NCBI GenBank assembly: GCA_902554705.1
Contig: CACDPP010000014.1
Span: forward strand, 1 to 45,177
Length of the DNA: 45,177 bases
Direction of reading: 5' to 3'
From: Paracoccaceae bacterium
GTDB taxonomy: Bacteria > Pseudomonadota > Alphaproteobacteria > Rhodobacterales > Rhodobacteraceae
Position numbers and translations under genes: made by a program. The number at the start of each line of letters is the position of its first letter. The first letter of the stretch is position 1. Under the pieces are notes generated by a model. It made no database searches. It saw nothing but the letters and a program-made list of their open reading frames with translations, and was not told the origin of the DNA. Below, piece by piece: positions 1,282 to 16,025 of this stretch.

Positions 1282-2436
1282 GAAAACTTTTTCGAGAGCT
1301 TGCTCCAAGTCATTTATAAGATCCAGCGGATCTTCAATTCCAACGGAAATTCTTACTAGTTTTTCGTTTACTGGGAAATCTTCCCCAGAAACCGTTTTTC
1401 TATGTTCGATTAAGCTTTCCACCCCACCTAAAGAAGTTGCTGGATAGAAAACTTTACAATTGCGAACAACATCGATCGCATCGGCTTCTGAACCGTTGAT
1501 AATAATTGATAACATTCCGCCATACTGTCCATTTGTTTGGTGTTTTGCAATTTGATGGTTAGGGTGGCTTTCTAACCCAGGATATAAAACTGTTTCGATA
1601 TAGTTATGGCTTTCAAAATGCTTAGCCAACAGCATTGCATTCTTACTATTCTTTTCCACTCTTAGAAACAAAGTGCGTAAGCCTCTTATTAATAAAAATG
1701 CATCTTGCGAATTTAAAACTGTTCCTTGTAGTTTGCGAATACCAGCGAGATTTTCCCAATCTGTGTTTGATTTCTTAAAAGATAAAACCCCTGCAGATAC
1801 ATCGGAGTGGCCATTAAGATATTTCGTAGCGGAGTGAAACGATATGTCTGCGCCAAGATCTAGCGATTTGGTCATTGTGGGAGGAGTTGCGGTTGCGTCT
1901 ACAATCAATTTCGCTTTAGCTTCGTGAGCTAGTTTGGAAGCTTGAACTATATCTGTAACCTCCCAATTCGGATTATTCGGAGTTTCGACCCATACCAATT
2001 GAGTAACTCCAGTTTTGATAGCTTCCTTCATACTTATCAGGTCACCCGCGTTGTAAAAATCAACACGGATCCTGTTTTTTTCACTAAAATTTTGAATTTG
2101 AGCTAAAACGCCATGGTACATCACTTTTGGCACAACGATATGGGCGTTTGGAGGCAACATTTCTAAAACTGCGGTACATGCCGACATTCCAGATGAAAAT
2201 AAAAGTGACATGTCAGCATTTTCGAGTTCAGCAATAATTTCTTCGGCTATTTGAGTGGTTTTATTCCCATCTCGCCTATACCAGTAAGCCTTGTGGGGCT
2301 CATAGTTTTCGTCGCGTGAATAAGTAGCCGTGTGCTCAACTGGTGGTACGACAGATCCCGTGTCTGGGTCGTTATAATGCAGCGCCTGCGCTATTTTCGT
2401 GGAAAGAGATAGTTCTTTTTCATTCTTAAGCGTCAT
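1261..2436 (-). CDS. Cys/Met-metabolism PLP enzyme (cystathionine gamma-synthase / methionine gamma-lyase family)
   Basis: A 391-residue fold-type I PLP enzyme, the usual length for cystathionine gamma-synthase, gamma-lyase and methionine gamma-lyase. The PLP lysine is in SATKYLNGHSD (about residue 200), the cofactor-ring aspartate is in VDATATPP, and the family ending TSLGGVESLIEHR is present. Departures from the canonical form are DAT where DNT is usual and GNKTT where GNPT is usual near residue 60, so the reaction should not be assumed. It is the last gene of a five-gene minus-strand operon, 30 bases after the DmdA-type gene. That position suggests handling of a methylthio or amino acid product, for example gamma-elimination releasing methanethiol, but this is inference. 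The ATG has only a weak upstream AAGAAAG. Cytoplasmic. Confidence 0.85.
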   Translation of the reverse strand: MTLKNEKELSLSTKIAQALHYNDPDTGSVVPPVEHTATYSRDENYEPHKAYWYRRDGNKTTQIAEEIIAELENADMSLLFSSGMSACTAVLEMLPPNAHIVVPKVMYHGVLAQIQNFSEKNRIRVDFYNAGDLISMKEAIKTGVTQLVWVETPNNPNWEVTDIVQASKLAHEAKAKLIVDATATPPTMTKSLDLGADISFHSATKYLNGHSDVSAGVLSFKKSNTDWENLAGIRKLQGTVLNSQDAFLLIRGLRTLFLRVEKNSKNAMLLAKHFESHNYIETVLYPGLESHPNHQIAKHQTNGQYGGMLSIIINGSEADAIDVVRNCKVFYPATSLGGVESLIEHRKTVSGEDFPVNEKLVRISVGIEDPLDLINDLEQALEKVFKKKGQD

Positions 2437-2466
2437 TGTGTAACTTTCTTAGGCATTCGTTCATAT

Positions 2467-3579
2467 TTAATTGAACGGCAGACACGATATCTCACCAGAA
2501 CGGATTTTGTTATCTTGGCAGTGAACTTCTACAGTTTGTTGCGCTGACCAATATTTTTGGTCAATCAACGAAAGTCCTACATTTTTTTTAAGTCGAGGAG
2601 ACCATATAGCAGATGTGATTTGCCCAATGTTTTTATTTTCAACTATTACTGGCCAGGGAAGAGAGCAAGTTGGACATTTATCACCTCCGAAAATAACACC
2701 TCGAATTTCCTTTGTTGCTCCCTTAGAGGCAATTTTTTCCAAAGCAGCACGACCGAGATAATCAACCGAGCCGTCTAATGAACAAAATTTACCTAAGCCA
2801 ATTTCTAATGGGTTGTTTTCTCTCGTAAATTCATTACCATAACTTAATAGTCCTCCCTCAATCCTTTCTATTAAGTTGGGACAACCAGGTGATATATTGA
2901 ATTCAATACCTGCTTCCCAAATCGTATCCCATAGATCTGAGCCTAGTTTACTGTTTTGCAAATATATCTCAAATCCACCCTGTCGGGAGTATCCCGATCT
3001 TGCAATGAGTTGCTGTGTGCCTTTAAATTCAATCCATCCAAACTTGAAGAAACCTATATGTTTAATCTGTTCACCAAATATTTTCGTGATTAACTGCTCA
3101 GCTTTAGGGCCTTGAATTGCTAAAGGTGAAACATCTGGCTCAGACACTGTAACATCCATTTTAGAACCTAATGCAATGCCTTTTGCGTACAGTAAGACGT
3201 CGCTGTCCGCCACAGAAAGCCAGAATTTATCATCTCCAATTTTCAGCATGACTGGATCATTTATCATTCCGGCATTTTCGTCGATTATAGGAAGATAATA
3301 ACAATCCCCAATAGTGGCAGTTGATATCTTTCTGGGGGTCATCATTTGAATTAATTTTTCAGCATCTGGACCTGATATTTCTACTTGCCTTTGGCAGGAA
3401 ACATCCCAAATTTGGACATGCTCTCTCAAATGCCAGTAATCTTCCTCAACAGTTTTCTGAAAACCTTTTGGAAGTAACATATGATTAACTATAGAGTACC
3501 CGCTGACGCCCGCTGCTTCTACATTTTTAGTATAGGCAGTGCGTCTCAATCTACGTGACATATTTAGGCCGTCAGTCAT
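2467..3579 (-). CDS. dmdA: DmdA-type tetrahydrofolate-dependent methyltransferase (DMSP demethylase family)
   Basis: A 370-residue GcvT-fold protein. DmdA transfers a methyl group from dimethylsulfoniopropionate to tetrahydrofolate, giving methylmercaptopropionate. The match to DmdA as I remember it runs the full length: SRRLRRTAYT then NHMLLP (residues 8-37), HVQIWDVSCQRQVEISGPDA (about 48-68), NDPVMLKIGDDKFWLSVADS (about 107-126), EPDVSPLAIQGPKA (about 146-160), the glycine-rich ARSGYSRQGGFEIY (near 193-207), CPNLIERIEGGLLSYGNEFT (about 233-253) and a final CLPFN resembling the DmdA end. A good ribosome site (AAGGAA) overlaps the stop of the preceding gene. Unusually, it is embedded in an operon of unrelated oxidative enzymes rather than beside acuI or a dmdBCD set. 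Other GcvT-like demethylases acting on betaines or methylated amines share the fold, so DMSP is likely but not proven. Confidence 0.72.
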   Translation of the reverse strand: MTDGLNMSRRLRRTAYTKNVEAAGVSGYSIVNHMLLPKGFQKTVEEDYWHLREHVQIWDVSCQRQVEISGPDAEKLIQMMTPRKISTATIGDCYYLPIIDENAGMINDPVMLKIGDDKFWLSVADSDVLLYAKGIALGSKMDVTVSEPDVSPLAIQGPKAEQLITKIFGEQIKHIGFFKFGWIEFKGTQQLIARSGYSRQGGFEIYLQNSKLGSDLWDTIWEAGIEFNISPGCPNLIERIEGGLLSYGNEFTRENNPLEIGLGKFCSLDGSVDYLGRAALEKIASKGATKEIRGVIFGGDKCPTCSLPWPVIVENKNIGQITSAIWSPRLKKNVGLSLIDQKYWSAQQTVEVHCQDNKIRSGEISCLPFN

Positions 3580-3589
3580 AAAAATTTCC

Positions 3590-3943
3590 TTATTCTGGCT
3601 GAGATGACCATATTGAATAGCTATTAGGCGATAAAATTACTGGCATATGGTACCTTGCATTTTTACTTGGCATGGAAAACCTCAAGACCACTTCGCTAAT
3701 TATTTGATTATCTGAGCCTGATAGTCCAAATGAATGCCAATAAGCGCCAGTATCAAATATCAACTCGAACTTATCTGTTGCATCGGTAAGTGATAAATCA
3801 ACGCTCTCTTCTAGCCTTCCATTATTGTCTATACTGGTACTAAAAATTTCTGAATTTTTTGTGATATTGATCAAACGAACAGGGAATCCACCTGCGTGAG
3901 TTCCATTCATTCCATTTAACGTATGCGAAGATATAATAGCCAT
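3590..3943 (-). CDS. Transthyretin-like / 5-hydroxyisourate hydrolase-family protein
   Basis: A 117-residue cytoplasmic protein with the HIU hydrolase (transthyretin-related) layout: an amino-terminal SSHTLN block (HTLN where LTTHVLD is usual), a PVRL strand, NNGRLEES (the arginine block), FELIFDTGAYW, and a late YHMPVILSPNSYSIW. The three residue types used for catalysis in the family (early His, middle Arg, late His) can all be placed. The hallmark carboxy-terminal YRGS tetrapeptide is absent; the protein ends WSSQPE. Its ATG overlaps the stop of the ThDP gene by one base (TAATG), so translation is coupled. No urate oxidase, OHCU decarboxylase or other ureide gene is in the window, so a true purine role is doubtful. 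It may have been recruited for another cyclic amide or serve as an accessory subunit. Confidence 0.7.
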   Translation of the reverse strand: MAIISSHTLNGMNGTHAGGFPVRLINITKNSEIFSTSIDNNGRLEESVDLSLTDATDKFELIFDTGAYWHSFGLSGSDNQIISEVVLRFSMPSKNARYHMPVILSPNSYSIWSSQPE

Positions 3944-5670
3944 TATTCAATAGATGCCTTGTCCCGTTTATCAGAAGTAGCTGCAACAATTGGACTAATT
4001 ACGCCTCTGCACTTTACGTTCAAGCAAGCGGTCTTGCCACTATTTATTGCTCTTGCTAGCGCAGGTTTTAATTCATCTCTAGAGGTAACCAACTCTCCAT
4101 ATCCGCCCAAACCTTCAAACATGGTATGGAATGGAATATCACGAAAATCAGTTGCATAGTGTTTTCCATTAGAAAAAAGTCGCTCCTGCTGCTGACTTAT
4201 GCAGTCTAAACCTCCATTGTTATCTATAACTACAACAATCGGTAAGCCTTCCTGAAAAGCACTTTCGACGGACAAACCTCCTGAAAGAAAGGCACCATCT
4301 CCTGAAATTACAACAACATTTTTATCTGGATGTGCAGCTTTTGCAGAAACACCGAAACTAATTCCAACGCCTAAAAGTGAATAGTTGCCAGGGTGCATAA
4401 TTCCACCTAGTTTCTTGCCCCGCCAACCAGAAATATTTACTGCAATTTCATTCCAAAAGTGAGTATTACCACCGTCAAATACGAGCCAATCGTCATTATT
4501 CATTTCTGAAATGATATCAACGCCAAGTTGCAGTGGGTGCATTTTACGCTTCGATTTTGCATCTTCTGATGCTTCTTCCATTAGATGTTTTTCCCAGTCC
4601 TCAACCCATTTTTTACGCCGGTCTATTTGTATTTCAAACCAATTTTTCCATGAACGGCTAATAGATTTCATTGCATCAAGAAATGCTGCTGGATGCGACA
4701 GAAGAATTTCATCAGCAGAAAAGTTATACTCTAATTCTTCGCTGCTTCCATTTATGCAAATAAGCTTTGTATTTTTTGGAATAAATGGTGGATTCCCAAA
4801 GTTCATCTGGTTATCAAGCCTACCTCCCACCATAATTATAGTATCGGCTTCGTGTATTGCAGCTTTCGACGGGTGATACTGATGAAAATCTGCAAGCCCC
4901 ATGTTTGCGGTGCAGTCCTCGCCTAATAATTTCGTGTGATAAGGCACATTAAAAATTGGGATAAGAAGTTTCTCGCCAACGTCTGCTAAGCTTTTTTCGG
5001 ACCGCGACCACCAAACCCCATGACCTGCAATAATTAAGGGTCGTTCAGAATTTTCTATGATTTTCAATATTTTTGATAATCGTGCTGGCTCAGGCCAAGC
5101 TCTTTGTGGTGCTACTTCATGCCTGATCCAGGGGCGCTCATTTCTACCCGCATCTGCTTCAAATGAGGAAAACATGATATCGACGGGCAAACTTAGATGA
5201 ACAGGCCCTGGGTATCCAGAAGTTGCTGCTTGCCAAGCTCTCTCAACAAATTCACCAATTCGCTCTCCATCGGTAATTTGGACAGAATATTTAACTAGAG
5301 GTTTAGCTATTGCTACGTCATCTATTTCTTTAAAGCCACCTGCACCTTGTCTCTTTAAAGTTGATGAACCTGTAACAAAAATTACCGGACTGCGTTCCCC
5401 CATAGCTTCTAACATAGCTGGTACTGCATTGGTAAAACCCTCAGGTCCAACTAAACAAACAGTTGGCTTTCGGTGTATTCTTGCGTGACCATCAGCTAAG
5501 TGACCCGCAATTTGTTCATGAGGAGTATTCATGACTGGCATTTGGCATTCCATGAAACCTTCTAAAGCAGGGTTGCAAAAACCACCGGCTAAAGTGAAAA
5601 CGTGATCAACGCCCTTTTCTTTGAATGATTGGGCTAATAATGCGCCGCCACGTAGTTTAGCTTTTTGCAT
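3943..5670 (-). CDS. Thiamin-diphosphate-dependent decarboxylase/carboligase (acetolactate synthase-like superfamily)
   Basis: A 575-residue enzyme with the three standard ThDP domains. The amino-terminal PYR domain starts GGALLAQSFKEKGVDHVF and carries the catalytic glutamate in HEQIAGHLADGHARI (about residues 51-65). The central domain lies around residues 200-340. The carboxy PP domain has the cofactor motif GDGAFLSGG running to DNNGG (about 461-493). It decarboxylates or ligates a 2-oxo acid. The preceding operon gene is an FMN alpha-hydroxyacid oxidase, so oxidation of a 2-hydroxy acid followed by decarboxylation of the 2-oxo acid (as in the mandelate pathway's MdlB/MdlC pair) is a natural reading, but the substrate is unknown. 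It is not sulfoacetaldehyde acetyltransferase, which has a different glutamate context. A Shine-Dalgarno AGGAG lies 10-11 bases before the ATG. Confidence 0.82.
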   Translation of the reverse strand: MQKAKLRGGALLAQSFKEKGVDHVFTLAGGFCNPALEGFMECQMPVMNTPHEQIAGHLADGHARIHRKPTVCLVGPEGFTNAVPAMLEAMGERSPVIFVTGSSTLKRQGAGGFKEIDDVAIAKPLVKYSVQITDGERIGEFVERAWQAATSGYPGPVHLSLPVDIMFSSFEADAGRNERPWIRHEVAPQRAWPEPARLSKILKIIENSERPLIIAGHGVWWSRSEKSLADVGEKLLIPIFNVPYHTKLLGEDCTANMGLADFHQYHPSKAAIHEADTIIMVGGRLDNQMNFGNPPFIPKNTKLICINGSSEELEYNFSADEILLSHPAAFLDAMKSISRSWKNWFEIQIDRRKKWVEDWEKHLMEEASEDAKSKRKMHPLQLGVDIISEMNNDDWLVFDGGNTHFWNEIAVNISGWRGKKLGGIMHPGNYSLLGVGISFGVSAKAAHPDKNVVVISGDGAFLSGGLSVESAFQEGLPIVVVIDNNGGLDCISQQQERLFSNGKHYATDFRDIPFHTMFEGLGGYGELVTSRDELKPALARAINSGKTACLNVKCRGVISPIVAATSDKRDKASIE

Positions 5671-5719
5671 TCATAATACTCCTAATATGCTGTAATTTAC
5701 GCACTGTATTTTATTCCAT

Positions 5720-6859
5720 CTACATTTTTGTGGAGATATCGTCGTATAAAACATCTCCAGAAATTTTACTTAAATCTTTTAGGCCTAATTGTGCCATAAC
5801 AACTTTTATTTCTTCTTTAAGCATTGAAATATAGTCGTTGAGACCTTTTTCGCTTGATGCCGCAATGGCCAGCATAATTGGCCTTCCGAGCATAACAAAG
5901 TTTGCCCCAAGCGCTAAAGCCTTCACTATATCTTCACCACTTCTAACGCCGCTATCAAAAATTAGTGGCAAATTGGGCCCGACGCTGTCTCGTATTTCAG
6001 GTAAAGCCAACAAAGCTGGTGGGGAACCGTCTAATTGTCTGCCACCATGGTTAGATACCCATATTGCATTAACTCCTGCATTTTGAATTCGTTTAGCATC
6101 CTCTGGATCCATGACACCTTTTACGATTAGGTTGCCTTTCCATCTTTTTCTTAATTCTCCAAGAAACTCCCAATTAGCCCCAGCACGGCTAGCGTTTCTA
6201 TCAAAACTGTTTTGAGATCCGTGACGAAAGTTTTTTGGCTCAGGAATTCCTTTCATAATAGTACTTAGAGACCAGTTCGGATGTAGTGCGAAATCTATAA
6301 ATTGTTTCAACCCTATTTTGAAAGGGACAACAAAGCCATTGCGCAAATCTCGCACACGACGCGATACAACTGGTACATCAACAGTTAAAATTAAAGTCGT
6401 ATATCCTGCAGCATCTGCTCGATCAACCATAGTCCATGCTTCTTTAGCGGGTCCGTTTACGTAAAGCTGAAACCATGTTTGGTCACCGCCCCATTTTTTA
6501 AGTTCTTCGAGGCTTGAAGAAGCAGCCGTAGACACACAATGTGGTATTTTGAACGTCTTTGCGGCTTCCGCTAAATTCCTATCAGCACCTGGCCAAGCAA
6601 GGTTGCACATACCCATTGGCGCAATGCCAAAGGGTAAATCAAAGCTATAATTTAGAAAATCGGCGTTTACCTTAGGATCTTCAACAGGAGCTAGAACTTT
6701 TGATCTCAAGTAAAAATCATTAAAGATTTGCAAGTTTTTTTCTGCGGCAACCTCTCTTCCCGCAGAGCCTTCAATAAAATCAAAAATCATACGGGGCAAT
6801 CTTCTTTTTGCTTTTGCTTTGGCATCCTCAAAACTTATTATGCTTTTTGGTCCCCACAT
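5720..6859 (-). CDS. FMN-dependent alpha-hydroxyacid oxidase/dehydrogenase (LldD/glycolate oxidase family)
   Basis: A 379-residue TIM-barrel flavoenzyme oxidising an (S)-2-hydroxy acid to the 2-oxo acid. Family motifs are in order: MIFDFIEGSAG near residue 24, PFGIAPMGMCNLAWPGAD (about 76-93), WFQLYV, LTVDVPVVSRRVRDLRNG, the FMN-lysine strand LIVKGVMDPEDA, the catalytic histidine block VSNHGGRQLDGSPPALLALP (about 268-287), then FDSGVRSGEDIVKALALGA and LGRPIM for the phosphate. No signal peptide or membrane insert is evident, so it is probably soluble. It heads the five-gene operon, with a good AAAGGAAA ribosome site and 49 bases to the ThDP gene. Lactate, glycolate and mandelate oxidases share these motifs, so the substrate cannot be chosen. 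The pairing with a ThDP enzyme suggests a 2-oxo acid destined for decarboxylation. Confidence 0.88.
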   Translation of the reverse strand: MWGPKSIISFEDAKAKAKRRLPRMIFDFIEGSAGREVAAEKNLQIFNDFYLRSKVLAPVEDPKVNADFLNYSFDLPFGIAPMGMCNLAWPGADRNLAEAAKTFKIPHCVSTAASSSLEELKKWGGDQTWFQLYVNGPAKEAWTMVDRADAAGYTTLILTVDVPVVSRRVRDLRNGFVVPFKIGLKQFIDFALHPNWSLSTIMKGIPEPKNFRHGSQNSFDRNASRAGANWEFLGELRKRWKGNLIVKGVMDPEDAKRIQNAGVNAIWVSNHGGRQLDGSPPALLALPEIRDSVGPNLPLIFDSGVRSGEDIVKALALGANFVMLGRPIMLAIAASSEKGLNDYISMLKEEIKVVMAQLGLKDLSKISGDVLYDDISTKM

Positions 6860-7088
6860 AATTATTTTCCTTTGGCACCGCAGGTATTCGACTTTGAAAG
6901 CTTAACTGTTCTATTAAAATTGGACAAATACAATATTGCGTTTCTTACGTTACGGTAAAAAAACAACGATAAAGAGTTCCTAATATAATTGCCAACCATC
7001 ATTTAAAAATTTCGTTAATTACTTCCATTCTAAAAGTTTAAATAATACGGTATTTTCAAATATTTTTGTCTTTTTGGAGGGTTTCCTA
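6860..7088. promoter_or_regulatory. Divergent promoter region between the FMN-oxidase operon and the ureohydrolase gene
   Basis: These 229 bases hold no gene. They must contain both outward promoters. The heptamer TACGGTA occurs twice (6951-6957, inside TTACGGTAA; 7046-7052, inside AATACGGTATT), about 95 bases apart, each with palindromic flanks around an odd centre. They could be sites for one regulator serving both sides. The same heptamer in inverted form lies upstream of the ABC ATPase gene (13074-13080). A strong GGAGG at 7076-7080 sets the ATG at 7089 as the ureohydrolase start. Regulator and promoters are unproven. Confidence 0.35.
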
Positions 7089-8057
7089 ATGAAAGAACAC
7101 GGATATAGCACGGGTCGCTTAAACCTTCCATTTGTGGGTATTTCTACTTTTGGGAAGTCTCCATTCGTAGATAATTGGGATGATATTAAGGCTGATGTTG
7201 CTATCCTAGGAGCGCCATTTGATTCAGGAACGCAGTGGCGTTCTGGGGCAAGATTTGGTCCAAAATCAATTCGTGAAGCATCGATGCTTTTTAGTTTTGG
7301 TCACGCAGGTGCCTATGATCACGAGGATGACGTCACCTATCTTGATAGTTCAGTTCGGATGGTTGACATTGGCGATGCTGATATTATCCACACAAAGACT
7401 ATAGAAAGTCACAATAATATTGAGCTCGGAGTAAAAAAAATTTTAGAGGCGGATGCCTTACCAGTAACCTTGGGGGGGGACCACTCAATCAATATTCCGT
7501 GCATTAATGCATTTGAAGATTTTTGTGCCGACAATGGACCCCTTCATATTGTTCAAATTGATGCCCATCTTGATTTTGTTGATGAAAGGCATGGTGTGAC
7601 TGTAGGTCATGGAAATCCAATGCGACGTGCAGCAGAAAAGCATTATGTCAAAGGGCTTTCTCAGTTTGGAATTCGTAATGTATCTTCTACAGCCAAAGAG
7701 GGTTATGAAGATGCTAGGTCATTTGGTTCAGATATTTTATCGGTACGTCAAATAAGGGAACTTGGGATTGACAAGCTAATCAAACGAGTTCCTAAAAGAG
7801 ACAACCTTTATTTAACAATAGACATAGATGCATTTTGTCCTTCAATTGCTGCGGGTACGGGAACACCCAGCCATGGTGGATTTTTGTACTATGAAGTGCT
7901 TGAGATTGTGCAGGGCCTAGCTAAGCAAAATAATATTGTTGGAATTGATTTGGTAGAAGTAGCTCCAGCCTATGATCCAAGTGAGTCCACGCAAATATTA
8001 GCTGCTCAGCTTTTACTTAATTTAATAGGGTTCATCTTTCATAATCGGCAAGCGTAA
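7089..8057 (+). CDS. Ureohydrolase (arginase/agmatinase family)
   Basis: A 322-residue member of the di-manganese ureohydrolase family, which cleaves guanidino compounds (agmatine, guanidinobutyrate, guanidinopropionate) to urea and an amine. Metal-binding motifs are complete: GGDHSINIP (about residue 129), DAHLDF (about 157), and TIDIDAF followed by GTGTPSHGG (about 240-260). The early block GAPFDSGTQWRSGARFGPKSI is typical of agmatinase. I start at ATG 7089 because GGAGG precedes it by eight bases; an upstream in-frame TTG at 7074 overlaps that ribosome site. It is transcribed away from the FMN-oxidase operon and towards a polyamine-type ABC transporter operon with which it converges. That setting fits a guanidino or polyamine-like compound being imported and cleaved, but does not identify it. 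No urease genes are present here. Confidence 0.85.
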   Translation: MKEHGYSTGRLNLPFVGISTFGKSPFVDNWDDIKADVAILGAPFDSGTQWRSGARFGPKSIREASMLFSFGHAGAYDHEDDVTYLDSSVRMVDIGDADIIHTKTIESHNNIELGVKKILEADALPVTLGGDHSINIPCINAFEDFCADNGPLHIVQIDAHLDFVDERHGVTVGHGNPMRRAAEKHYVKGLSQFGIRNVSSTAKEGYEDARSFGSDILSVRQIRELGIDKLIKRVPKRDNLYLTIDIDAFCPSIAAGTGTPSHGGFLYYEVLEIVQGLAKQNNIVGIDLVEVAPAYDPSESTQILAAQLLLNLIGFIFHNRQA

Positions 8058-8117
8058 CTTTAGCTTGTGAAAACTGCTGATATCGCGAAATTAATTTTTG
8101 ACTTACAAGTTTTATGC

Positions 8118-9329
8118 TTAACTTGGCGTTATACCTCTTAATCTCTCAGAGCGCCTTCGGAGCATTTCAAGGGTTATTAATAGTGCTATAGAAATAGCAA
8201 CAAGTATAGTTGCGACTGCTAGGATCGTAGGGCTAATTTGCTCTCTTAATCCAGTAAACATCTGCCATGGCAGTGTCTTCTGGTTTGTCGAGCCAACAAA
8301 CATTACAACAACTACTTCGTCGAATGAGGTGATAAAAGCAAAAAGACCTCCAGAAATAACGCCAGGCAAGATAAGTGGCATTTGAATTTTGAAAAATGTC
8401 TTTACTGGATTTGCTCCCATGTTTGCCGCCGCTCTTGTCAGTGAGCTATCAAATCCCACCAAAGTAGCTGTTACTGTAATTATAACAAACGGAATTCCAA
8501 GAACACTGTGAGCAAGAATAACTTTAACATACCCAACAAAATTCTTATCAAGACCGATCCTGTCTTCCAAAAAATTCCCTACATGAGAATAAAAGAAAAA
8601 CATCCCCGTAGCAGATATAATTAATGGGACGATCATTGGTGATATCAAAATCGCCATTATAGCTCTTTTAAACGGAACGTGACTTTGACTAAGGCCAATC
8701 GCCGCGAGAGTTCCTAAAGAAACTGATACTACTGTCGCAACTGGCGCGATTAATAATGAATTTTTAAAAGATCTTTGCCACTCGTTATTAGTAAAAAAAT
8801 CTCTGTAGTGCTTTAGTGAATATCCTTCTGGCTCAAATTTAAGCATTTCAGGAGTAAAAGTAAAAAAATCCTGTGAATTAAATGATAGAGGCATAACGAC
8901 TAGAATTGGCATAATTAGGAAAATGAAGATAATCCCACAGACAATTCTGAAAATATAGTGCCACAAAACCTGGCTAGAAGATAGATAAGGCTGGAGTTTT
9001 GTTCTATATCTGCCCAGATAAAGCCAGTATAAGTACCACCCAAAAAACCAACCTACTAAGAGGCCTAGTATAATCCCGACAACACCAAGAAAATAAAAAG
9101 CTGCCAATGCAAAAAAAGCACATATGGTGTAACGCATGGTGTTTTCATTTTGACTAGCAGAAATTCCTGTGATGCTTATGAAAACAACTAATATTATACC
9201 AATTAGCAAACCTAGTAAGCCTGATCCGTTTGCAACGCCGATTACTAAACCAATCGAGCCGCCAACTAATCCCATCGATAAGAGGGTAAATACAATTTTA
9301 CTTTGAAAAAAGGGTTTTGGCCGATTCAT
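8118..9329 (-). CDS. ABC transporter permease, PotC-like with amino-terminal membrane extension
   Basis: An inner-membrane permease of a polyamine/opine-type (PotABCD) importer. Typical PotC proteins have about 260-280 residues; this one has 403, because about 135 residues with several extra hydrophobic helices (the GLVGGSIGLVIGV, LLGLLIGIILVVF, AFFALAAFYF and IILGLLVGWFFGWYL stretches) precede the permease domain. The core carries the EAA loop RAAANMGANPVKTFFKIQMP ending PG (near residue 315), which docks on the ATPase. I prefer ATG 9329, four bases after the upstream permease stop with GGTGGG as ribosome site, over an overlapping GTG at 9339-9341. The extension's function is unknown. It is the last gene of the transporter operon. 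Confidence 0.85.
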   Translation of the reverse strand: MNRPKPFFQSKIVFTLLSMGLVGGSIGLVIGVANGSGLLGLLIGIILVVFISITGISASQNENTMRYTICAFFALAAFYFLGVVGIILGLLVGWFFGWYLYWLYLGRYRTKLQPYLSSSQVLWHYIFRIVCGIIFIFLIMPILVVMPLSFNSQDFFTFTPEMLKFEPEGYSLKHYRDFFTNNEWQRSFKNSLLIAPVATVVSVSLGTLAAIGLSQSHVPFKRAIMAILISPMIVPLIISATGMFFFYSHVGNFLEDRIGLDKNFVGYVKVILAHSVLGIPFVIITVTATLVGFDSSLTRAAANMGANPVKTFFKIQMPLILPGVISGGLFAFITSFDEVVVVMFVGSTNQKTLPWQMFTGLREQISPTILAVATILVAISIALLITLEMLRRRSERLRGITPS

Positions 9330-9333
9330 TCTG

Positions 9334-10608
9334 CTACCCACCTAATTTCACATTATCGATGCCGACAATTTTATCGTAGGTCCAATATAAAATTAACACA
9401 GCGACTAAAAGAATAGTGCCTAGCGCAGCGGCTAAGCCCCAGTTCAATGACTTCAGTATATGATATGCAATGCGATTGGAGATAAACACACCTTTAGTTC
9501 CACCGACGATCTCGGGGGTGATGTAATATCCAATTGCTAGTATGAAGACCAAAATTGACCCAGCACCAATTCCTGGTACAGATTGAGGAAAATACACTCG
9601 CCAGAATGCAGTCCAGTTTGTTGCACCCAATGATTTTGCTGCACGCAAATAACTAGGTGGGATTGTTTGCATAACAGAATACATCGGTAAGATCATAAAA
9701 GGTAAAAGTATATGGGTCATGGCAACGATAGTCCCAATTTCATTATTAATCATAATGAGACGGCCCTCATTCGAAATAAGACTAAGTTGCACGAGAACAT
9801 CATTTATAACGCCTTGTTGCTGCAACATGACTTTCCAAGCTGAAGTCCTCACTAACAAGGAGGTCCAAAAAGGTAATAAAACCAAAATCATAAGTAAGTT
9901 CGCCTGACGCATTGGAAGGTTAGCTAAAAGCCAAGCCACTGGATATCCAAGAATAATGCATGAAAAAGTAATTATTAACGACATCACCAACGTTCGTTGG
10001 AATAATTTAATTAAGATTGTTTTGTCTTCTGGTTGCCACTCTGCCCCTTGAACGGTTTTCCGCATATCAACTGCATTGAGAAAATATCCCGACGTGTAAG
10101 TCGGACTATGTGTTTTAATAGTTTGCCATACCTCTACTTCACCCCATCCTTTATGTACTTTTATTAATTTTTCTTTAAATGGACCATCATTTTCAATATC
10201 CCATTTTTTTGCTTTTCTTGCGGTCTTTTTGAAAAGTGACGCGATCCCAGATTTTTCATAATTGAGCCTTAATGCTACTTTGGTATGAACTTTGGCCTTT
10301 GCTGCATTCTGAATATCTTGAGCAAAAGCTCTGTAAACAGGCTCGTCTGGTAATTCACCACTCATTGCATCCCAAGATTGAATCGACTGTACCGTTAGAG
10401 GTAAAGTTTGTCCTACTAGTTCGTTTTCAACCGATCTAGATAGCATAGAAATAATCGGCATTATGAATGCAACTAAAATAAAAATTAAAAGCGGAGCTAT
10501 TAATAATAAAGCTCTCATTTTTTGCTGTCGGAGAGAGCGATTTAGGCTCTTCTTTAATGGAGTACCATCTGCTGACAAAAGTACATTTGTTGAAGAGCTA
10601 CTAACCAT
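9334..10608 (-). CDS. ABC transporter permease, PotB-like with large periplasmic insert
   Basis: A 424-residue permease partner of the preceding PotC-like protein. After a charged amino terminus and a first helix (ALLLIAPLLIFILVAFIMP, about residues 33-51), about 150 mostly hydrophilic residues, rich in Lys and Trp, come before the second helix (LFQRTLVMSLIITFSCIILG). This would form a periplasmic domain much larger than in E. coli PotB. The EAA loop is RAAKSLGATNWTAFWRVYFP (about 330-349). The insert may contact the binding protein. It lies 86 bases downstream of the binding-protein gene, with a stem-loop in the gap, and is followed immediately by the second permease. Polyamine-type family is clear; substrate is not. 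Confidence 0.86.
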   Translation of the reverse strand: MVSSSSTNVLLSADGTPLKKSLNRSLRQQKMRALLLIAPLLIFILVAFIMPIISMLSRSVENELVGQTLPLTVQSIQSWDAMSGELPDEPVYRAFAQDIQNAAKAKVHTKVALRLNYEKSGIASLFKKTARKAKKWDIENDGPFKEKLIKVHKGWGEVEVWQTIKTHSPTYTSGYFLNAVDMRKTVQGAEWQPEDKTILIKLFQRTLVMSLIITFSCIILGYPVAWLLANLPMRQANLLMILVLLPFWTSLLVRTSAWKVMLQQQGVINDVLVQLSLISNEGRLIMINNEIGTIVAMTHILLPFMILPMYSVMQTIPPSYLRAAKSLGATNWTAFWRVYFPQSVPGIGAGSILVFILAIGYYITPEIVGGTKGVFISNRIAYHILKSLNWGLAAALGTILLVAVLILYWTYDKIVGIDNVKLGG

Positions 10609-10655
10609 AAAGGTATCATTTTCTGTCTATTGTTTTAAATAAATAGTATTCTAGA

Positions 10656-10679
10656 TGAAGAGCCCCAGTGGGCTCTTCA
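10656..10679 (-). other. Intergenic stem-loop between binding-protein and permease genes
   Basis: A perfect 10-bp inverted repeat (TGAAGAGCCC at 10656-10665, GGGCTCTTCA at 10670-10679) with a four-base loop, lying 16 bases after the binding-protein stop. No T tract follows on either strand, so it is not a standard terminator. In ABC operons such structures commonly protect the upstream mRNA from 3' decay or cause partial termination, giving more binding protein than permease. That role here is inferred. Confidence 0.7.
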
Positions 10680-10694
10680 ATAATTGTAAGTTTA

Positions 10695-11804
10695 TTATTT
10701 AGCTAACCAAGCCTGAAACTTCGCATCAAGGTCATCTCTATAATCTGCCCAGAAGTCATAGTTCATCAAAAAGGCTCTTGATAGATTTTCTGGTGCTGTT
10801 GGCATGTGAGGCCCCATGTCTATACCTAGGTCTGCGTGCTGTCCTACCAACGGTGCTGAAGAAGCTCTTGCTGGACCGTAGCTAATGTATTTCGCCTGAT
10901 CAGCAAGCCGCTGGGTATCGGTTGCAAACATAATATAGTCTAACGCACGAGCTTGACGCTCAGGGCTAAGACCAGCTGGAATAATCCAACCGTCCAAATC
11001 CATCACCTGACCGTCCCAAATCATTGCAACAGGTTGTTTTTGCTCTTCAATCAGTGAGAACAAACGACCATTGTAAGTGGCTCCCATAATTACTTCGCCA
11101 TCGGCAAGTAGTTGTGGCGTGTCAGAACCAGATGATACCCAGATCACATCGTCTTTAATTGTATCGAGTTTCGCAAGCGCTTGATCTTGTCCTTTTTCTG
11201 TTGCGAGAACATCATAGATATCTGCTTTATCTACGCCGTCGCAAAGAAGAGCCCATTCCATCTGGTTTATAGGAACACTAAAGAGTGATCGCTTACCTGG
11301 ATAAGTTTTTGTATCAAAAACTGCACAAACATTATCTGGAGGAGTGTCACCTACAAGATCTGTACGATATCCAAAAGTGGTAGAGTAAACAATCTGCGGA
11401 ATAAAGCATGGTGAAACAAGCATATCGCCAAAATCTTCAGATGCTGGCGTGCCATCAGGTGCTGCAGCAAGCATTGTATCTGGATCAATTTCCATAGCTA
11501 AGCCTTCGTCACACAACTGCATCGCAGGCGCGGCCTCTACATCTACAACATCCCAGGTGATGTTTTTTGCTTCATTCATGGCTCTCAACTGTGCAACGGC
11601 TGTTGATGAGCTGTCGTCATTAAGTATTGTCACTCCAGTTTTAGCTGAATAAGGCTCGTGATATGCTTTAAGTTGAGACTTAGAATAAGCCCCACCCCAT
11701 GACACAATTGTCATTTCCATAGACATATGACTGTCTGCAGAAGCCGCACCTGAAATCAATGCTGCTGATACAGTTGTCAAAATTGTTTTAGTGAAGTTCT
11801 TCAT
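10695..11804 (-). CDS. ABC transporter periplasmic substrate-binding protein, PotD/spermidine-putrescine family
   Basis: A 369-residue exported binding protein. The signal peptide is MKNFTKTILTTVSAALISGA with probable cleavage after ASA near residue 23. The mature start MEMTIVSWGGAYSKSQLKAY is the family signature for polyamine and related cationic solute binders (SBP_bac family). WDVVDVEAAPAMQLCDEGL and PAGLSPERQARALDYIMFA are further family blocks. Four cysteines (in MQLC, SPCF, DNVC and LLCDG) could form periplasmic disulfides. A strong GGGAGAAG lies before the ATG. Hairpins on both sides (terminator-like upstream, stem-loop downstream) indicate that its expression is set separately from the ATPase and permease genes. 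The next-door ureohydrolase and amino-compound enzymes fit a guanidino, amino-acid-derived or polyamine ligand. Confidence 0.87.
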   Translation of the reverse strand: MKNFTKTILTTVSAALISGAASADSHMSMEMTIVSWGGAYSKSQLKAYHEPYSAKTGVTILNDDSSSTAVAQLRAMNEAKNITWDVVDVEAAPAMQLCDEGLAMEIDPDTMLAAAPDGTPASEDFGDMLVSPCFIPQIVYSTTFGYRTDLVGDTPPDNVCAVFDTKTYPGKRSLFSVPINQMEWALLCDGVDKADIYDVLATEKGQDQALAKLDTIKDDVIWVSSGSDTPQLLADGEVIMGATYNGRLFSLIEEQKQPVAMIWDGQVMDLDGWIIPAGLSPERQARALDYIMFATDTQRLADQAKYISYGPARASSAPLVGQHADLGIDMGPHMPTAPENLSRAFLMNYDFWADYRDDLDAKFQAWLAK

Positions 11805-11831
11805 CTACTTCTCCCATGTTGCCCGTTGTTG

Positions 11832-11873
11832 AAAAAAAGTATTAGCCTCCCGGGCAAATTGACTAATACTTTT
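11832..11873 (-). terminator. Terminator-like hairpin between ABC ATPase and binding-protein genes
   Basis: A perfect 11-bp inverted repeat (AAAAGTATTAG at 11835-11845, CTAATACTTTT at 11863-11873) with a 17-base loop containing CCCGGG. On the minus strand the second arm runs into seven T residues (11838-11832), the layout of a Rho-independent terminator, though the stem is AT-rich. It lies about 40 bases after the ATPase stop and about 28 before the binding-protein ATG, so it would uncouple the two and imply a separate promoter or read-through control for the binding protein. Confidence 0.65.
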
Positions 11874-11914
11874 AAAGCTGTATCCGAATTTGGATCAGCT
11901 AACTCTTGAGCTTT

Positions 11915-13015
11915 CTATGCATCTAAAGCACGACAGCATGACGTTGACCAGCCAATCTCGATTTTTTCTCCTGGATTAAGTCTAACTTGATCAGACGAAT
12001 TTCTTGTTTTGACGATAAAATCTTCATTACCAGCAACCCGCAATCTGGTGCGAAAAACATCACCCATATATATGAACTCTAAAACTTCTGCAGTCAAAGT
12101 GTGGGAGCCTGGTGGGAGCCTCTTCTTGTTCAGCTCGACCCGCTCTGGTCTTATGGATACCTGGGTTCGCTCACCAATAGTCGAAACGTTCACTGGTTTG
12201 CAATCGATTATATCACCGCTGTCTAACTTAACGGTCGCAACATCACTTTTTAAATCAGAGATAGTACCGTTCAACGTATTGTTTTCTCCTATAAATTGAG
12301 CTACAAAGCTGTTTTCGGGTTCCTCATAAAGCTGATCAGGCGTTGCTAACTGTTGTATCCGACCATCGTTAAATACTGCTACTCGGTCCGACATTGTTAA
12401 TGCTTCCGTTTGGTCATGCGTTACGTAAACGACTGTAATACCTAGACGATGGGCCAATCCAGTTATCTCAAACTGCATTTTTTCTCTAAGCTGTTTATCT
12501 AAAGCCCCTAGAGGCTCATCCATTAGAACCAACTCAGGCTCAAATACTAATGCTCTTGCGAGTGCGATACGTTGCTGTTGACCTCCTGAAAGTTGAGCTG
12601 GCCTGCGTCCCTTAAATTCTCCCATCTCAACCATATCGAGGGCTCTATTAACTTTTTCCTCGCGAGTTGCTTTATCTAACTTTCTAACTTCAAGAGGAAA
12701 TGATAAGTTTTCTGCTACACTCATATGAGGAAATAAAGCGTAATTTTGGAATACCATGCCAATACCGCGTTTATGTGGAGGAATGTTATTAATTGATATT
12801 CCATTTAGCATGATCTCGCCATGGGTCGCCGTTTCAAAACCAGCTAGCATCATCAAACAGGTGGTTTTTCCGGATCCTGATGGGCCCAGCATTGTCAAAA
12901 ATTCGCCCTTTGGTACTTCCAAATTAAGATCTTTTACAACGAGTGTCTCGCCATCATAACTTTTTTGTACGCGATCAAATTTCACAAATGCTGAGGAACT
13001 ATTATTATTTACCAA
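11915..13015 (-). CDS. ABC transporter ATP-binding protein, PotA family
   Basis: A 366-residue ATPase that drives the polyamine-type importer. Walker A is GPSGSGKTT (near residue 44), the signature is LSGGQQQRIALARAL (about 142), Walker B is LVLMDEPLGALD (about 161) and the switch histidine is in VYVTHDQTEALTMSDR. The carboxy third is a TOBE-type regulatory domain (SIRPERVEL onward). The best start is TTG at 13015, eight bases after AAAGGGA; no ATG lies nearby. It is encoded ahead of the binding protein, unlike the usual order, and a terminator-like hairpin separates the two. The 129 bases upstream, before the racemase-family gene, hold a palindrome at 13080-13089. Confidence 0.9.
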   Translation of the reverse strand: MVNNNSSSAFVKFDRVQKSYDGETLVVKDLNLEVPKGEFLTMLGPSGSGKTTCLMMLAGFETATHGEIMLNGISINNIPPHKRGIGMVFQNYALFPHMSVAENLSFPLEVRKLDKATREEKVNRALDMVEMGEFKGRRPAQLSGGQQQRIALARALVFEPELVLMDEPLGALDKQLREKMQFEITGLAHRLGITVVYVTHDQTEALTMSDRVAVFNDGRIQQLATPDQLYEEPENSFVAQFIGENNTLNGTISDLKSDVATVKLDSGDIIDCKPVNVSTIGERTQVSIRPERVELNKKRLPPGSHTLTAEVLEFIYMGDVFRTRLRVAGNEDFIVKTRNSSDQVRLNPGEKIEIGWSTSCCRALDA

Positions 13016-13073
13016 GTTTTATTTCCCTTTAGATCCTAGTAACCAATGCACATAACCAGTCATTTAAAACATA

Positions 13074-13089
13074 TACCGTATCATATGAT
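13074..13089. promoter_or_regulatory. Palindromic site upstream of the ABC ATPase gene
   Basis: The 10-bp perfect palindrome ATCATATGAT (13080-13089) abuts TACCGTA (13074-13080), the inverse of the TACGGTA heptamer seen twice before the ureohydrolase gene. It lies about 60-75 bases before the ATPase start in a 129-base gap, so it may be an operator or part of a promoter. No regulator gene is adjacent. Short palindromes in AT-rich DNA arise by chance, so support is modest. Confidence 0.35.
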
Positions 13090-13144
13090 CAAGCCGAATT
13101 AGAGTTTTTTTTGAAACTAAAAAATTACTTTTGAAAGGCATATT

Positions 13145-13855
13145 TTATAAATTCTGTTTTGATAATATTTTCATATGCCATGCTAAGGACTGGTTGCTTG
13201 AAAATACTGGCTTGTTAATCTCATTAGCAATTTTGCCCAAACAGTTAAATGTTCTCAAATTAGTACAACTAATAAATACTGCCTCTACAGACTCGTTTTG
13301 GCCAAGAGTTATTGCAGCTTCGATAGTTGAGCTCTCTGAAATACGTGCAACTTTTTCTTCTTTTCCTTCTCCAAAGGTTCCAAAAACTTCTGTGCTCAGG
13401 CCGTTATTACCAAAAGCCTTTCGAAGGGGTGTGTTAACTTCTTCTATATAAGGCGAAAGTAAAGCCAGTTTACTAACCTTTATATGTTTTGCGTATTCAG
13501 TTGCTGCCAAAAGAGGATTTGTAACTTCTTTAGTATGACAACCAGATTTAATTAATTCTGATATTTTTTCTGATCCAATAATAGCACTTGCTGATGTACA
13601 TCCATACCCAATGACAGAAAATTCTCTTGATTGTGGTAATAGTTTTGCAGAAGCCTTGATATGCCGTTCCATACTAATCAAAGATTCTTTGGAAACTTCT
13701 AAACCACTTGGGATTCTTGTCACAAAAATTTGGTTTTTTGATGTCCCGAAAGCTTCTCTAAACTCACCTTCGATTGTTTCATCTACTTGAAGAACAATTA
13801 AACCCATCGGAGAGTGGTTATTTTCATCAGAGGATAGGTCAAAGTCAAATTTCAT
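13145..13855 (-). CDS. Asp/Glu racemase-superfamily enzyme (EutA / maleate isomerase / arylmalonate decarboxylase group)
   Basis: A 236-residue cytoplasmic enzyme of the two-cysteine racemase fold. The first catalytic cysteine is in IGYGCTSAS (about residue 84) and the second in FISCTNLRT (about 195), with a family ending resembling SSNQSLAWHM. This motif pattern is that of maleate cis-trans isomerases and EutA, an ectoine-utilisation protein. Its ATG overlaps the stop of the M24 gene by four bases (ATGA), so it is translated as part of the three-gene set. It could isomerise, racemise or decarboxylate a small dicarboxylate or amino acid from the same pathway; substrate unknown. The hydrophilic amino terminus before MGLIVLQ is slightly longer than usual. 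Confidence 0.78.
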   Translation of the reverse strand: MKFDFDLSSDENNHSPMGLIVLQVDETIEGEFREAFGTSKNQIFVTRIPSGLEVSKESLISMERHIKASAKLLPQSREFSVIGYGCTSASAIIGSEKISELIKSGCHTKEVTNPLLAATEYAKHIKVSKLALLSPYIEEVNTPLRKAFGNNGLSTEVFGTFGEGKEEKVARISESSTIEAAITLGQNESVEAVFISCTNLRTFNCLGKIANEINKPVFSSNQSLAWHMKILSKQNL

Positions 13856-14985
13856 ATTACAGGTAAGTCCTTTTCAGCTTTGGAGCTAAGATACCGTGCG
13901 CCGGTTTCTGTAATTTCAATATTTTCCTCATGAACGATTATTCTATCATTTAATGTTATCCCTGGCTCAAGGCTTAAGACCATTCCTTGCTCTATTACTG
14001 TATGGTCGTCGGGAATTAATGACGGCCATTCCGTTAGCGACATTCCCACGCCATGGCCTAGACGACCGGCATCTGTGCCTGAAGAATTTTGGGTTAAAAT
14101 CGAATTCATTGCATGAAATAAATCTGATGCTGTCGCGCCAGGCTTCGCGATCTCAAAGGCAGCATCTGAAGCCTCTAAAAGTTGGGAATATGCAGCTGAT
14201 ACTATTTTAGACGGAGGGCCGACAGACCAATTTCTGTCATAGTCACAAAAGTATCCATCCCAAACTAACCCTGTGTCCAGCATTAATATGTCCCGTTTTT
14301 TCAGAGGTGCCACTTTAGCCGGTGATATTACATCATCATATCCCTCAGTATCTGCTCCTCCGGCAAGATAAGGAACCCAGTCGGCGCCAGCTTCTAGGCA
14401 GAGCATTTGAAACTTACGGAAAACCTCATCTAAATTAACATTCTCAAAAGCAATTTCTGGAACGCGTTTGAAAGCGTCTTCAGCTATTCTACAAGCTTTT
14501 TCTATTTTGTCGATTTCTTCATTTGATTTTGTCATTCTGAGTTTTTTTACAATATCAAAATCAGACGTCAGTTTAACATTTTGAGATAATTTTTTAAGAT
14601 CAGTTTGCGGCATTCGAACATATGTCTCTGTTCCGCTTGGAAGGCCAATATTTTTATTTTTTGCGATCTCCTCTAAAGTATCTGACAAAAGAGAAATACC
14701 CTCATCTTTTAAATCGGGAGAGGGCCATGTACGGATATCTTCTACCCACGTCTTACTCATTAAAGCTTTGCCTATTGACGGAATAACAGCAATAGGTTTT
14801 CCTTTCGAAGGAATAATGAGGTACCAAGGTCTTGTTGGGCTTTCCCAAAATCTAGTAAGAAATCCCGTAAAATATCGCACATTTGTTTCAGTTGTAAGAA
14901 GTAAAGCATCAAGCCCATGGTGTTGCATTAGTTGCTGAGCCTTCAATGTTCTTTTTTCGAACTGATCAATGTTGAAGCCTCTCAT
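13852..14985 (-). CDS. M24-family metallohydrolase (Xaa-Pro peptidase / ectoine hydrolase / creatinase fold)
   Basis: A 377-residue protein with the creatinase-type amino domain (ALLLTTETNVRYFTGF near residue 30) and the pita-bread catalytic domain. All five metal ligands can be placed: Asp in MLDTG and Asp in FCDYDRN (about 240-255), His in GHGVGM, Glu in LEPGI and Glu in EENIEI. It is therefore probably an active dinuclear metallohydrolase, not a metal-free creatinase. ATG 14985 is chosen because it forms an ATGA overlap with the preceding stop; upstream in-frame codons lie inside that gene. Relatives include prolidase-like dipeptidases and ectoine hydrolase (DoeA/EutD). Its neighbours, an EutA-like and a PLP enzyme, recall the ectoine-utilisation set, but the deacetylase and EutC homologues are absent. 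Confidence 0.82.
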   Translation of the reverse strand: MRGFNIDQFEKRTLKAQQLMQHHGLDALLLTTETNVRYFTGFLTRFWESPTRPWYLIIPSKGKPIAVIPSIGKALMSKTWVEDIRTWPSPDLKDEGISLLSDTLEEIAKNKNIGLPSGTETYVRMPQTDLKKLSQNVKLTSDFDIVKKLRMTKSNEEIDKIEKACRIAEDAFKRVPEIAFENVNLDEVFRKFQMLCLEAGADWVPYLAGGADTEGYDDVISPAKVAPLKKRDILMLDTGLVWDGYFCDYDRNWSVGPPSKIVSAAYSQLLEASDAAFEIAKPGATASDLFHAMNSILTQNSSGTDAGRLGHGVGMSLTEWPSLIPDDHTVIEQGMVLSLEPGITLNDRIIVHEENIEITETGARYLSSKAEKDLPVI

Positions 14986-16025
14986 TCTGCAACCTCTGAA
15001 AGAAAGCAAAGAGTTTTGGAATCAGCATTCATTTTTAAAAGTTTCGCAACTTGGTTGTTCATAGCCGCTGCAACGCCCGCACCACCTGAAGCAGTAGTTT
15101 CTAGATTATAATAGGACATTTTTTCCAAATTACTGATAACTTCATCATCATCTAGGGTTAAAAAAAAGTCTGCATCTCTAGCTAATCCATTTAGAGCTAT
15201 AAATGATGGTTCTTTGCAATCTAAGCGCCCCATTACACTATCTGGCCCTTCTGTTAAAACGGGCTTACCGAGTTCAATGCTTGCTTGTAGAGCTGGTGCA
15301 GCTGAGGGCTCAACAACTGTTATCACTGGAGTATCAACCCAGATTTTTCGAATATGTGCTGCAACGGCTCCTGCCAATCCGCCAACACCGGCTTGTAGAA
15401 AAACATGAGTAGCTTTGGTCTTACACTGGGATATAGCTTCGTCGGCCATTTGTAAGTAACCCTCCATAAGTTTCAGAGGTTTGTCTGTATAATTTTCCCA
15501 TGAGCTGTCAGATAAAAGAATCCAATTATTTTCTTCTGCGGCTTCTAAAGCTGCCAACATCGATGCGGCATAGTCCGAACCTTTTCGGACTGGAACGGCT
15601 CCTTTCTCGCGCAATCTATCAGAAAAGGTTTCTGGTACAGTTTCTGAAATAAACACAACAGCTTTAGCTCCGAAAATTTTTGCTCCTGCCGCAAGGCTTA
15701 AACCATGATTTCCTGCACTTGCTGTTACGTAAGTTTTACCTGCCAAAGTAGTTGAGCAGGGGTTTTCTGTTAAATTCTGGGCATGACTTGCAATTACATA
15801 AGCAGCACCAAGAGCTTTAAATGAACCAAGTCCCATTCTTTCTCTTTCATCTTTCACCCATAGTTTTCCCTGAGGTAAAAAATTTTCTAGTTCCAATAAC
15901 GGTGTTTTGGAAGCGACAGGACATTTTTTTAATAGGCTAGAAACTTTATCAACATCTGTGGATGGAAATGGAGCACTATCTATTATCTTATTTTTTTTTC
16001 TGTGTGCGTTTTCTATTAACCGCAT
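14982..16025 (-). CDS. PLP-dependent lyase, diaminopropionate ammonia-lyase-like (threonine dehydratase fold)
   Basis: A 347-residue fold-type II PLP enzyme that would deaminate or eliminate ammonia from a 2,3-diamino or 3-hydroxy amino acid. The PLP lysine is in GLGSFKALGAAYVIA (about residue 72), preceded by LWVKDERERM. TYVTASAGNHGLSLAAGA is the phosphate-contact loop, and THVFLQAGVGGLAGAVAAHI the glycine-rich cofactor loop. SSWENYTDKP matches the diaminopropionate lyase DTAWEGYTKIP block. ATG 16025 is preferred to an upstream TTG because GGGGGA lies seven bases before it. It heads a translationally coupled set with the M24 hydrolase and racemase-family gene. EutB-type hydroxyectoine enzymes share the fold, so the amino acid substrate remains open. 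Confidence 0.8.
   Translation of the reverse strand: MRLIENAHRKKNKIIDSAPFPSTDVDKVSSLLKKCPVASKTPLLELENFLPQGKLWVKDERERMGLGSFKALGAAYVIASHAQNLTENPCSTTLAGKTYVTASAGNHGLSLAAGAKIFGAKAVVFISETVPETFSDRLREKGAVPVRKGSDYAASMLAALEAAEENNWILLSDSSWENYTDKPLKLMEGYLQMADEAISQCKTKATHVFLQAGVGGLAGAVAAHIRKIWVDTPVITVVEPSAAPALQASIELGKPVLTEGPDSVMGRLDCKEPSFIALNGLARDADFFLTLDDDEVISNLEKMSYYNLETTASGGAGVAAAMNNQVAKLLKMNADSKTLCFLSEVAE

Follow-up and report, generated by a model that had tools for sequence, protein, structure and literature searches.

Which compound is broken down by three enzymes whose genes stand upstream of a PotABCD-architecture ATP-binding cassette (ABC) importer in a marine alphaproteobacterial genome, and do the enzymes and the importer handle the same one? 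The genes, for a pyridoxal phosphate (PLP) enzyme, an M24 hydrolase and a EutA-like enzyme (together the trio below), lie in a 45,177-nucleotide stretch of a Paracoccaceae bacterium (GCA_902554705.1, contig CACDPP010000014.1), which as a whole is called the window here. Its genome (G000) is 69% complete, with 1.85 Mb in 79 contigs, and its genus mates carry the names Rhodobacteraceae bacterium AG-359-N23 and SW22112_bin_29 in the M24 alignment scan. The trio is a real and widespread unit of catabolic-type enzymes, carried by marine roseobacters. We give an even chance to a reading in which it is one of two adjoining modules, the importer being a hub for amino, amidino and guanidino carboxylates resembling gamma-aminobutyric acid (GABA), and the trio hydrolysing, epimerising and beta-eliminating a beta-substituted alanine derivative. 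All of the evidence is comparative and comes from incomplete genomes.

The trio was followed through 80 named M24 loci, the best 80 of at least 537 relatives from the M24 alignment scan, chosen by M24 similarity alone and counted per locus, not per independent event. The complete order, with the M24 gene immediately preceded by the PLP gene and immediately followed by the EutA-like gene, is present in 66 of the 80, and at least one partner gene adjoins the M24 gene in all 80. Among the other 14 loci, three of which sit at contig ends, nine are without the PLP gene at that place (L126 has it downstream) and five are without the EutA-like gene, none being without both. The genera represented are Ruegeria, Shimia, Nereida, Sulfitobacter, Tateyamaria, Litoreibacter, Planktomarina, Stappia, Maritalea and others. 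Within the window's genus, its gene order is repeated in G001 (L032), G005 (L033, where the contig stops within PotB) and G007 (L035). Since these three genomes share that order and the complete trio order recurs in 66 loci, the arrangement is not due to chance. Counting the window's own genome, 27 of 61 genomes gave EutA-like matches; four of the 15 other genus genomes have a copy (77-94% identity), in every case inside the trio. An M24 relative was present at 1e-70 in 75 of 149 family genomes. The original prediction, made from the window alone, had proposed a catabolic-type set belonging to an undescribed system. The co-occurrence check found the linkage of the three enzymes conserved in related genomes, and no description of the cassette was found in open-licence papers. 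We know of no named substrate for the trio's M24 enzyme.

In the window, the seven genes in question and a ureohydrolase gene are all intact open reading frames (ORFs). They run, on the minus strand from 5' to 3', as PLP enzyme, M24, EutA-like enzyme, PotA, binding protein, PotB and PotC, with the ureohydrolase convergent on the plus strand. The two ATGA overlaps predicted to couple the three enzymes, the complete importer downstream of them and the convergent ureohydrolase were thus all confirmed:

14982-16025, minus strand: fold-type II PLP enzyme of a short DpaL-like subfamily, 347 aa (PALP family; predicted beta-eliminating ammonia-lyase)
14982-14985, minus strand: ATGA overlap of the PLP enzyme stop and the M24 start, read in the sequence
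13852-14985, minus strand: M24 hydrolase with the full metal-ligand set (Creatinase_N and Peptidase_M24)
13852-13855, minus strand: ATGA overlap of the M24 stop and the EutA-like start, read in the sequence
13145-13855, minus strand: EutA/arylmalonate-decarboxylase-type two-cysteine enzyme (Amdase/EutA family; predicted racemase or isomerase)
11915-13015, minus strand: PotA-type ABC ATPase, TTG start as listed (TIGR01187)
10695-11804, minus strand: periplasmic binding protein of the GABA/opine-binding group (SBP_bac_8)
9334-10608, minus strand: PotB-type permease (BPD_transp_1)
8118-9341, minus strand: PotC-type permease, 8-base overlap with potB (BPD_transp_1)
7089-8057, plus strand: agmatinase-type ureohydrolase, convergent (Arginase family; TIGR01230)

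The PLP enzyme is taken to start at the ATG behind a GGGGGA stretch; the mechanical ORF begins at a TTG at 16070.

The M24 enzyme has an archaeal prolidase as its best-scoring match and falls far below the EutD/DoeA cut-off (TIGR02993, 72.2 bits against 613). Its Asp237, Asp248, His311 and Glu340 are present in 80/80 loci and Glu353 in 79/80 (one has a stop); these residues align to those of prolidase, and we take them to be metal ligands. Although creatinase shares the M24 fold, both creatinase and EutD are only 25% identical to the window enzyme, and the Asp-Asp-His set kept by the trio M24 is missing from the one creatinase and the two EutD proteins that were aligned. The idea of a third amidine hydrolase beside creatinase and EutD was weakened because the M24 enzyme has metal ligands that both of these lack. 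The EutA-like enzyme likewise stays below the cut-off of its namesake (TIGR02990, 131.1 bits against 318) and is 30% identical to EutA, with the two cysteines kept: Cys86 is present in 75/75 copies and Cys197 in all 74 readable ones of the 75, presumably as the catalytic pair of the maleate-isomerase/Amdase superfamily.

For the PLP enzyme, the best family in both NCBIfam and the PDB is DpaL, with scores under the DpaL cut-offs (PRK08206, 237.9 bits against 276; TIGR03528, 156 against 532). E. coli DpaL handles the D and L isomers of its substrate with two Asp residues; we take the Asp of the TDGNHG motif to be Asp120, the base for the D-isomer, and the one at the position of the window's Asp173 to be Asp189. 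Shared with DpaL are the PLP lysine, Lys70, kept in 72/72 trio PLP enzymes, and Asp173, present in all 71 readable enzymes of the 72 and aligned to an Asp of 5ygr. In contrast, the first Asp is replaced by Ala104 in 72/72 of the short enzymes, which read SAGNHG. The predicted likeness to diaminopropionate ammonia-lyase is upheld as to family, lysine and second Asp, but not as to the length, the cut-offs or the first Asp.

Two loci, L050 (G003, of the window's genus) and L135 (Aminobacter), carry a cystathionine beta-lyase near the M24 and EutA-like genes. The L050 copy scores 542 bits against PRK07050 (cut-off 500), the two copies are 70.6% identical, and their PLP fold differs from that of the DpaL-like enzymes; a DpaL-like gene was looked for in both loci and not found. 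Because a cystathionine beta-lyase stands near the M24 and EutA-like genes where the DpaL-like gene is missing, beta-elimination is probably the step common to both kinds of locus. The L050 genes (5556-14306) form a second set in the window's genus, comprising an arginase-family gene, an OpuAC-type importer, the EutA-like gene, a PhyH dioxygenase weakly similar to ectoine hydroxylase (61.7 bits against 336.5), the M24 gene and the cystathionine beta-lyase. The set also occurs in L047, which ends before the M24 and cystathionine beta-lyase genes; the families were run on L050.

From these family placements, the three enzymes would act on one compound, and the trio probably destroys a small, nitrogen-rich, amino-acid-like molecule. 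The M24 enzyme would hydrolyse an amide or cyclic amide, freeing an amino acid whose beta-carbon carries a leaving group, most likely nitrogen; the EutA-like two-cysteine enzyme would invert a stereocentre; and the PLP enzyme would remove that group and ammonia by beta-elimination, leaving a 2-oxo acid such as pyruvate. An N-acyl precursor fits the neighbours of more divergent relatives, on which this idea rests. In the nine examined of 29 plasmid M24 matches (from Aliiroseovarius, Phaeobacter, Roseovarius, Vibrio, Photobacterium, Aminobacter and Mesorhizobium), an M20 deacylase lies within the same 19 kb in seven, two of which are the sources of the references, and the Aliiroseovarius M20 resembles DoeB2 (319 bits, cut-off 550).

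Several other neighbours of the trio were noted. A pterin-binding methyltransferase gene (Pfam) lies directly upstream of the M24 gene in L126 (7897-8958), and likely also in L082 (7851-8981), there judged by a similar N-terminus only. Genes for LLM monooxygenase and aldehyde dehydrogenase stand near the trio or importer in L057 (685-5560), L111 and L101, together with flavin reductase and alpha/beta hydrolase genes in L057. In L105 (5893-7823), the proteins encoded directly upstream of the trio look by eye like TctA and TctB, the first being without an NCBIfam match, which suggests another importer type for the trio. Four loci of the window's genus (L038-L040 and L044) hold a conserved block distinct from the window trio, with a EutA-like gene (41%), an M24 gene (51%) in two of the four, a 737-aa gene and further gene families.

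The importer was predicted to be of polyamine type, and its ATPase and permeases fit that description, with PotA above the cut-off of the polyamine subfamily (TIGR01187, 382.6 bits against 355.6). Its ligand, in contrast, is probably not a polyamine, as the binding protein falls among the GABA and opine binders. No match to NCBIfam, including the polyamine models, was obtained for this protein up to 1e-3 and 1e-5. Its AlphaFold model (predicted local distance difference test score, pLDDT, 89.3) retrieved from the PDB by Foldseek first the SAR11 PotD with GABA (36% identity) and then the opine binders MotA and AgtB and the Atu4243-GABA complex, with the polyamine complexes of SpuD and PotD lower in the list at 14-19% identity. 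The GABA contacts of the sensor iGABASnFR2 (PMC12999171) map to Trp36, Tyr40, Ile138, Tyr140, Tyr244, Arg247, Asp271 and Tyr309. Trp36, Arg247, Asp271 and Tyr309 are the sensor's own residues and are invariant (28/28, and 24/24 in named loci), while Tyr140 corresponds to the engineered Tyr102 of the sensor (Phe in its parent). The window protein thus has in common with the GABA-binding proteins (SAR11 PotD, Atu4243 and iGABASnFR Pf622) the fold, the SWGG and NGR motifs and these four residues, yet is at most 36% identical to them. The importer most likely takes up GABA-like small zwitterions in which a carboxylate is set apart from an amine, amidine or guanidine. No description of PDB 8JV1 or of the SAR11 PotD was found in open-licence papers.

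Gene modules around the importer were counted by tblastn, since the ORF caller gave shadow ORFs in GC-rich genomes, at identity thresholds of 40% in the 80 M24 loci (EutD 50%, Atf 65%) and 45% in 60 importer loci. The latter were hand-chosen among the high-identity matches; they include contig ends as well as genomes that also supply named loci. The importer is present in 25 of the 80 M24 loci. These 25 contain creatinase (12), an ArgE-like gene (8), DUF1989 (8), EutD (7), ureohydrolase (6) and Atf (5), against one creatinase, one DUF1989 and no ArgE-like, EutD, ureohydrolase or Atf gene in the 55 trio loci without it. Restricting the count to full-length loci left the same module numbers in 22 loci with the importer, and one creatinase and none of the others in 39 without. 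The L056 copy of creatinase matches 1chm at 549 bits. Of the references, the EutD scores 604.9 bits (cut-off 613) and is 60.6% identical to the EutD of a canonical ueh-eutABCDE-atf cluster (L196), and Atf is matched by that cluster at 86%. DUF1989 we take to have a guanidine role. Within 20 kb, L194 and L195 both combine importer, trio, creatinase, EutB, EutC, EutD, ArgE-like, Atf and DUF1989 genes, L194 also having a ureohydrolase. Among the 60 importer loci, EutD or ArgE-like genes occur in 21, creatinase in 11, M24 in 10, and ureohydrolase and Atf in four each. In a quick tree of 87 binding proteins, with weak support for 42 of the 81 inner branches and some identical rows (same genomes), modules changed many times (trio 17, creatinase 14, EutD 20, ureohydrolase 8). 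A tally of second Pot systems was dropped, as a divergent PotB of the same importer fell below the threshold.

The importer looks like a hub in roseobacters, beside which catabolic modules come and go. The modules swapped there would be an ectoine-type one (EutD, an ArgE-like deacetylase and Atf), a set of creatinase, ureohydrolase and DUF1989, and the trio. That importer and trio share a substrate is favoured by their direct linkage: in 17 of the 80 loci PotA follows the trio on its own strand. Nevertheless, several observations weigh against the two-module reading. The link between importer and enzymes, part of the original prediction, is seen in 25 loci, but the other 55 are without the importer ATPase or binding protein (L107 among them has permeases at the locus edge), and none of the counted modules is present in 30 of the 60 importer loci, so a common substrate does not follow. 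Tests of whether pairs of modules changed together on the binding-protein tree fell short of the 0.05 level (median p 0.25 to 1). At three of the GABA contacts the residue is another one (Tyr40 for Thr, Ile138 for Phe and Tyr244 for Trp). Because the short PLP enzyme is without the Asp kept by five of the six longer relatives examined, diaminopropionate itself may not be its substrate. A weaker cystathionine beta-lyase match (37%) stands near a complete trio in L080, and an M20 gene is present in only one of the 80 loci.

The alternative that survives best starts from the ectoine/5-hydroxyectoine cluster (eutABCDE, ueh/ehu, atf), where an M24-fold hydrolase, a EutA-family enzyme, a fold-II PLP enzyme and an importer likewise stand in a row. 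The trio had been predicted to parallel EutD, EutA and EutB while standing outside that set, and none of its enzymes reaches the EutD, EutA, EutB or DpaL cut-offs; the PLP enzyme is DpaL-like and 25% identical to EutB, and the ectoine clusters use the tripartite ATP-independent periplasmic (TRAP) importer Ueh or Ehu, whereas the window importer is of Pot/GABA type. EutC and the deacetylase, noted as absent from the window, both adjoin the same cassette in other genera: in L193-L195, homologues of EutB (50-52%; one of three over the cut-off), EutC, EutD and Atf lie beside trio and importer, with an ArgE-type gene beside the importer apparently replacing EutE. On this alternative, the trio would be a 5-hydroxyectoine branch independent of EutB and EutC, with M24 opening the ring or deacetylating, the EutA-like enzyme inverting the hydroxyl centre and the PLP enzyme eliminating water and ammonia. 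For hydroxyectoine, an inversion of the hydroxyl by EutA and a loss of water through EutB, a PLP dehydratase, have already been proposed (PMC5924519). L193, L194 and L195 hold trio and importer with EutB, EutC, EutD, ArgE-like and Atf genes (the last 81-83% identical to the reference) and no second EutA was seen in them; the trio also lies between Atf and PotA in L221, L193 and L195. We nonetheless consider this branch unlikely. EutB and the trio PLP enzyme coexist in L193-L195. EutD was found at 1e-20 in none of 16 genus genomes (three of them at least 90% complete) by a query that finds it in 4/4 control genomes, and no EutB was found at 1e-100 in the 69% complete G000. Replacement of EutB by the trio was rejected, as there is no anti-correlation (M24 at 1e-70 in 19 of the 32 genomes with EutB and in 56 of the remaining 117). 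EutD, ArgE and Atf genes were not observed beside the 55 importer-less trio loci, where EutB/EutC matches are confined to remote ones (31-34%) at L099 and L110.

A layout of EutD, ArgE-like, Atf and Pot/GABA-type importer genes could have escaped a 2026 EutD survey (PMC13188858), because that survey centred on matches with EutD, EutE and EutB and names Ueh or Ehu as the alphaproteobacterial importers; its main text is without the words 'polyamine', 'spermidine', 'acetylornithine' and 'creatin'.

A plain importer of GABA or 5-aminovalerate, with its catabolic neighbours forming a genomic island that has no functional link to it, would agree with the closest solved structure being the SAR11 PotD with GABA, with the GABA and 5-aminovalerate binding of Pseudomonas aeruginosa proteins of the same Pfam type (PMC11113362) and with the module-free half of the importer loci. 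The repeated association with EutD/ArgE-like, creatinase and trio genes across the binding-protein tree makes this doubtful. We regard an ordinary polyamine importer with unrelated neighbouring enzymes as improbable: PotA exceeds the polyamine cut-off, and a potFGHI-like system and an aminotransferase stand close to the importer in some genomes, L176 for example, but the binding protein is without an NCBIfam match where the PotF-like binding protein of the second importer in L176 reaches 445.6 bits (under its own cut-off of 636), the best folds are GABA and opine complexes, and catabolic modules are linked to the importer.

Least probable of all is a single guanidino-compound pathway with the ureohydrolase as one step, which the ureohydrolase and creatinase counts beside the importer and the arginase-family gene of L050 would suit, and which is weakened by their near absence from importer-less trio loci (0/55 and 1/55), by L222, a short contig with importer, creatinase and ureohydrolase and no trio, and by G011. 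In this genome, of the window's genus, the trio is present, the importer's binding protein has no closer counterpart than a paralogue at 31%, and the 76% identical ureohydrolase is on another contig. The ureohydrolase is thus separable from trio and importer and is not a fixed partner, and a part for it in the trio pathway, considered earlier, lost ground on the same evidence. By sequence it is agmatinase-type (TIGR01230, 182.8 bits over a cut-off of 174.3; PRK02190, 199.2 under 302) with the motifs GGDHS, DAHLD and DIDAF. The G011 copy (L237, 3319-7640; 75-76%) lies beside TctA/TctB-looking genes and, by eye, an alcohol dehydrogenase-looking ORF.

Returning to the two-module reading, we tentatively suggest an extension in which the GABA-type importer would serve roseobacters as a shared entry point for osmolytes of the amidinium- and guanidinium-carboxylate kind (ectoine, hydroxyectoine, creatine and guanidino acids), with the trio as a third, new pathway that degrades a beta-substituted diamino-acid osmolyte of marine origin. 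Most importers of nitrogen compounds from plankton lack an annotation; in Ruegeria pomeroyi, a single mutant study raised the number of putative organic importers with a verified substrate from 4 to 18, out of 126, and ectoine is taken up by uehABC and polyamines by potFGHI (PMC10130141). For the importer described here, the neighbouring genes point to a class of ligands open to a quick test, and relatives of its binding protein, distant paralogues included, are present in 209 of 248 family genomes at 1e-60.

Further downstream in the window (1261-6859, minus strand) is a row of genes for a Cys/Met-type PLP enzyme, a dimethylsulfoniopropionate (DMSP) demethylase family protein (PRK12486, 560 bits, cut-off 410), a transthyretin/HIUase-like protein, a thiamine pyrophosphate enzyme and a flavin mononucleotide-dependent dehydrogenase. 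Part of this row stands directly behind the trio in G011.

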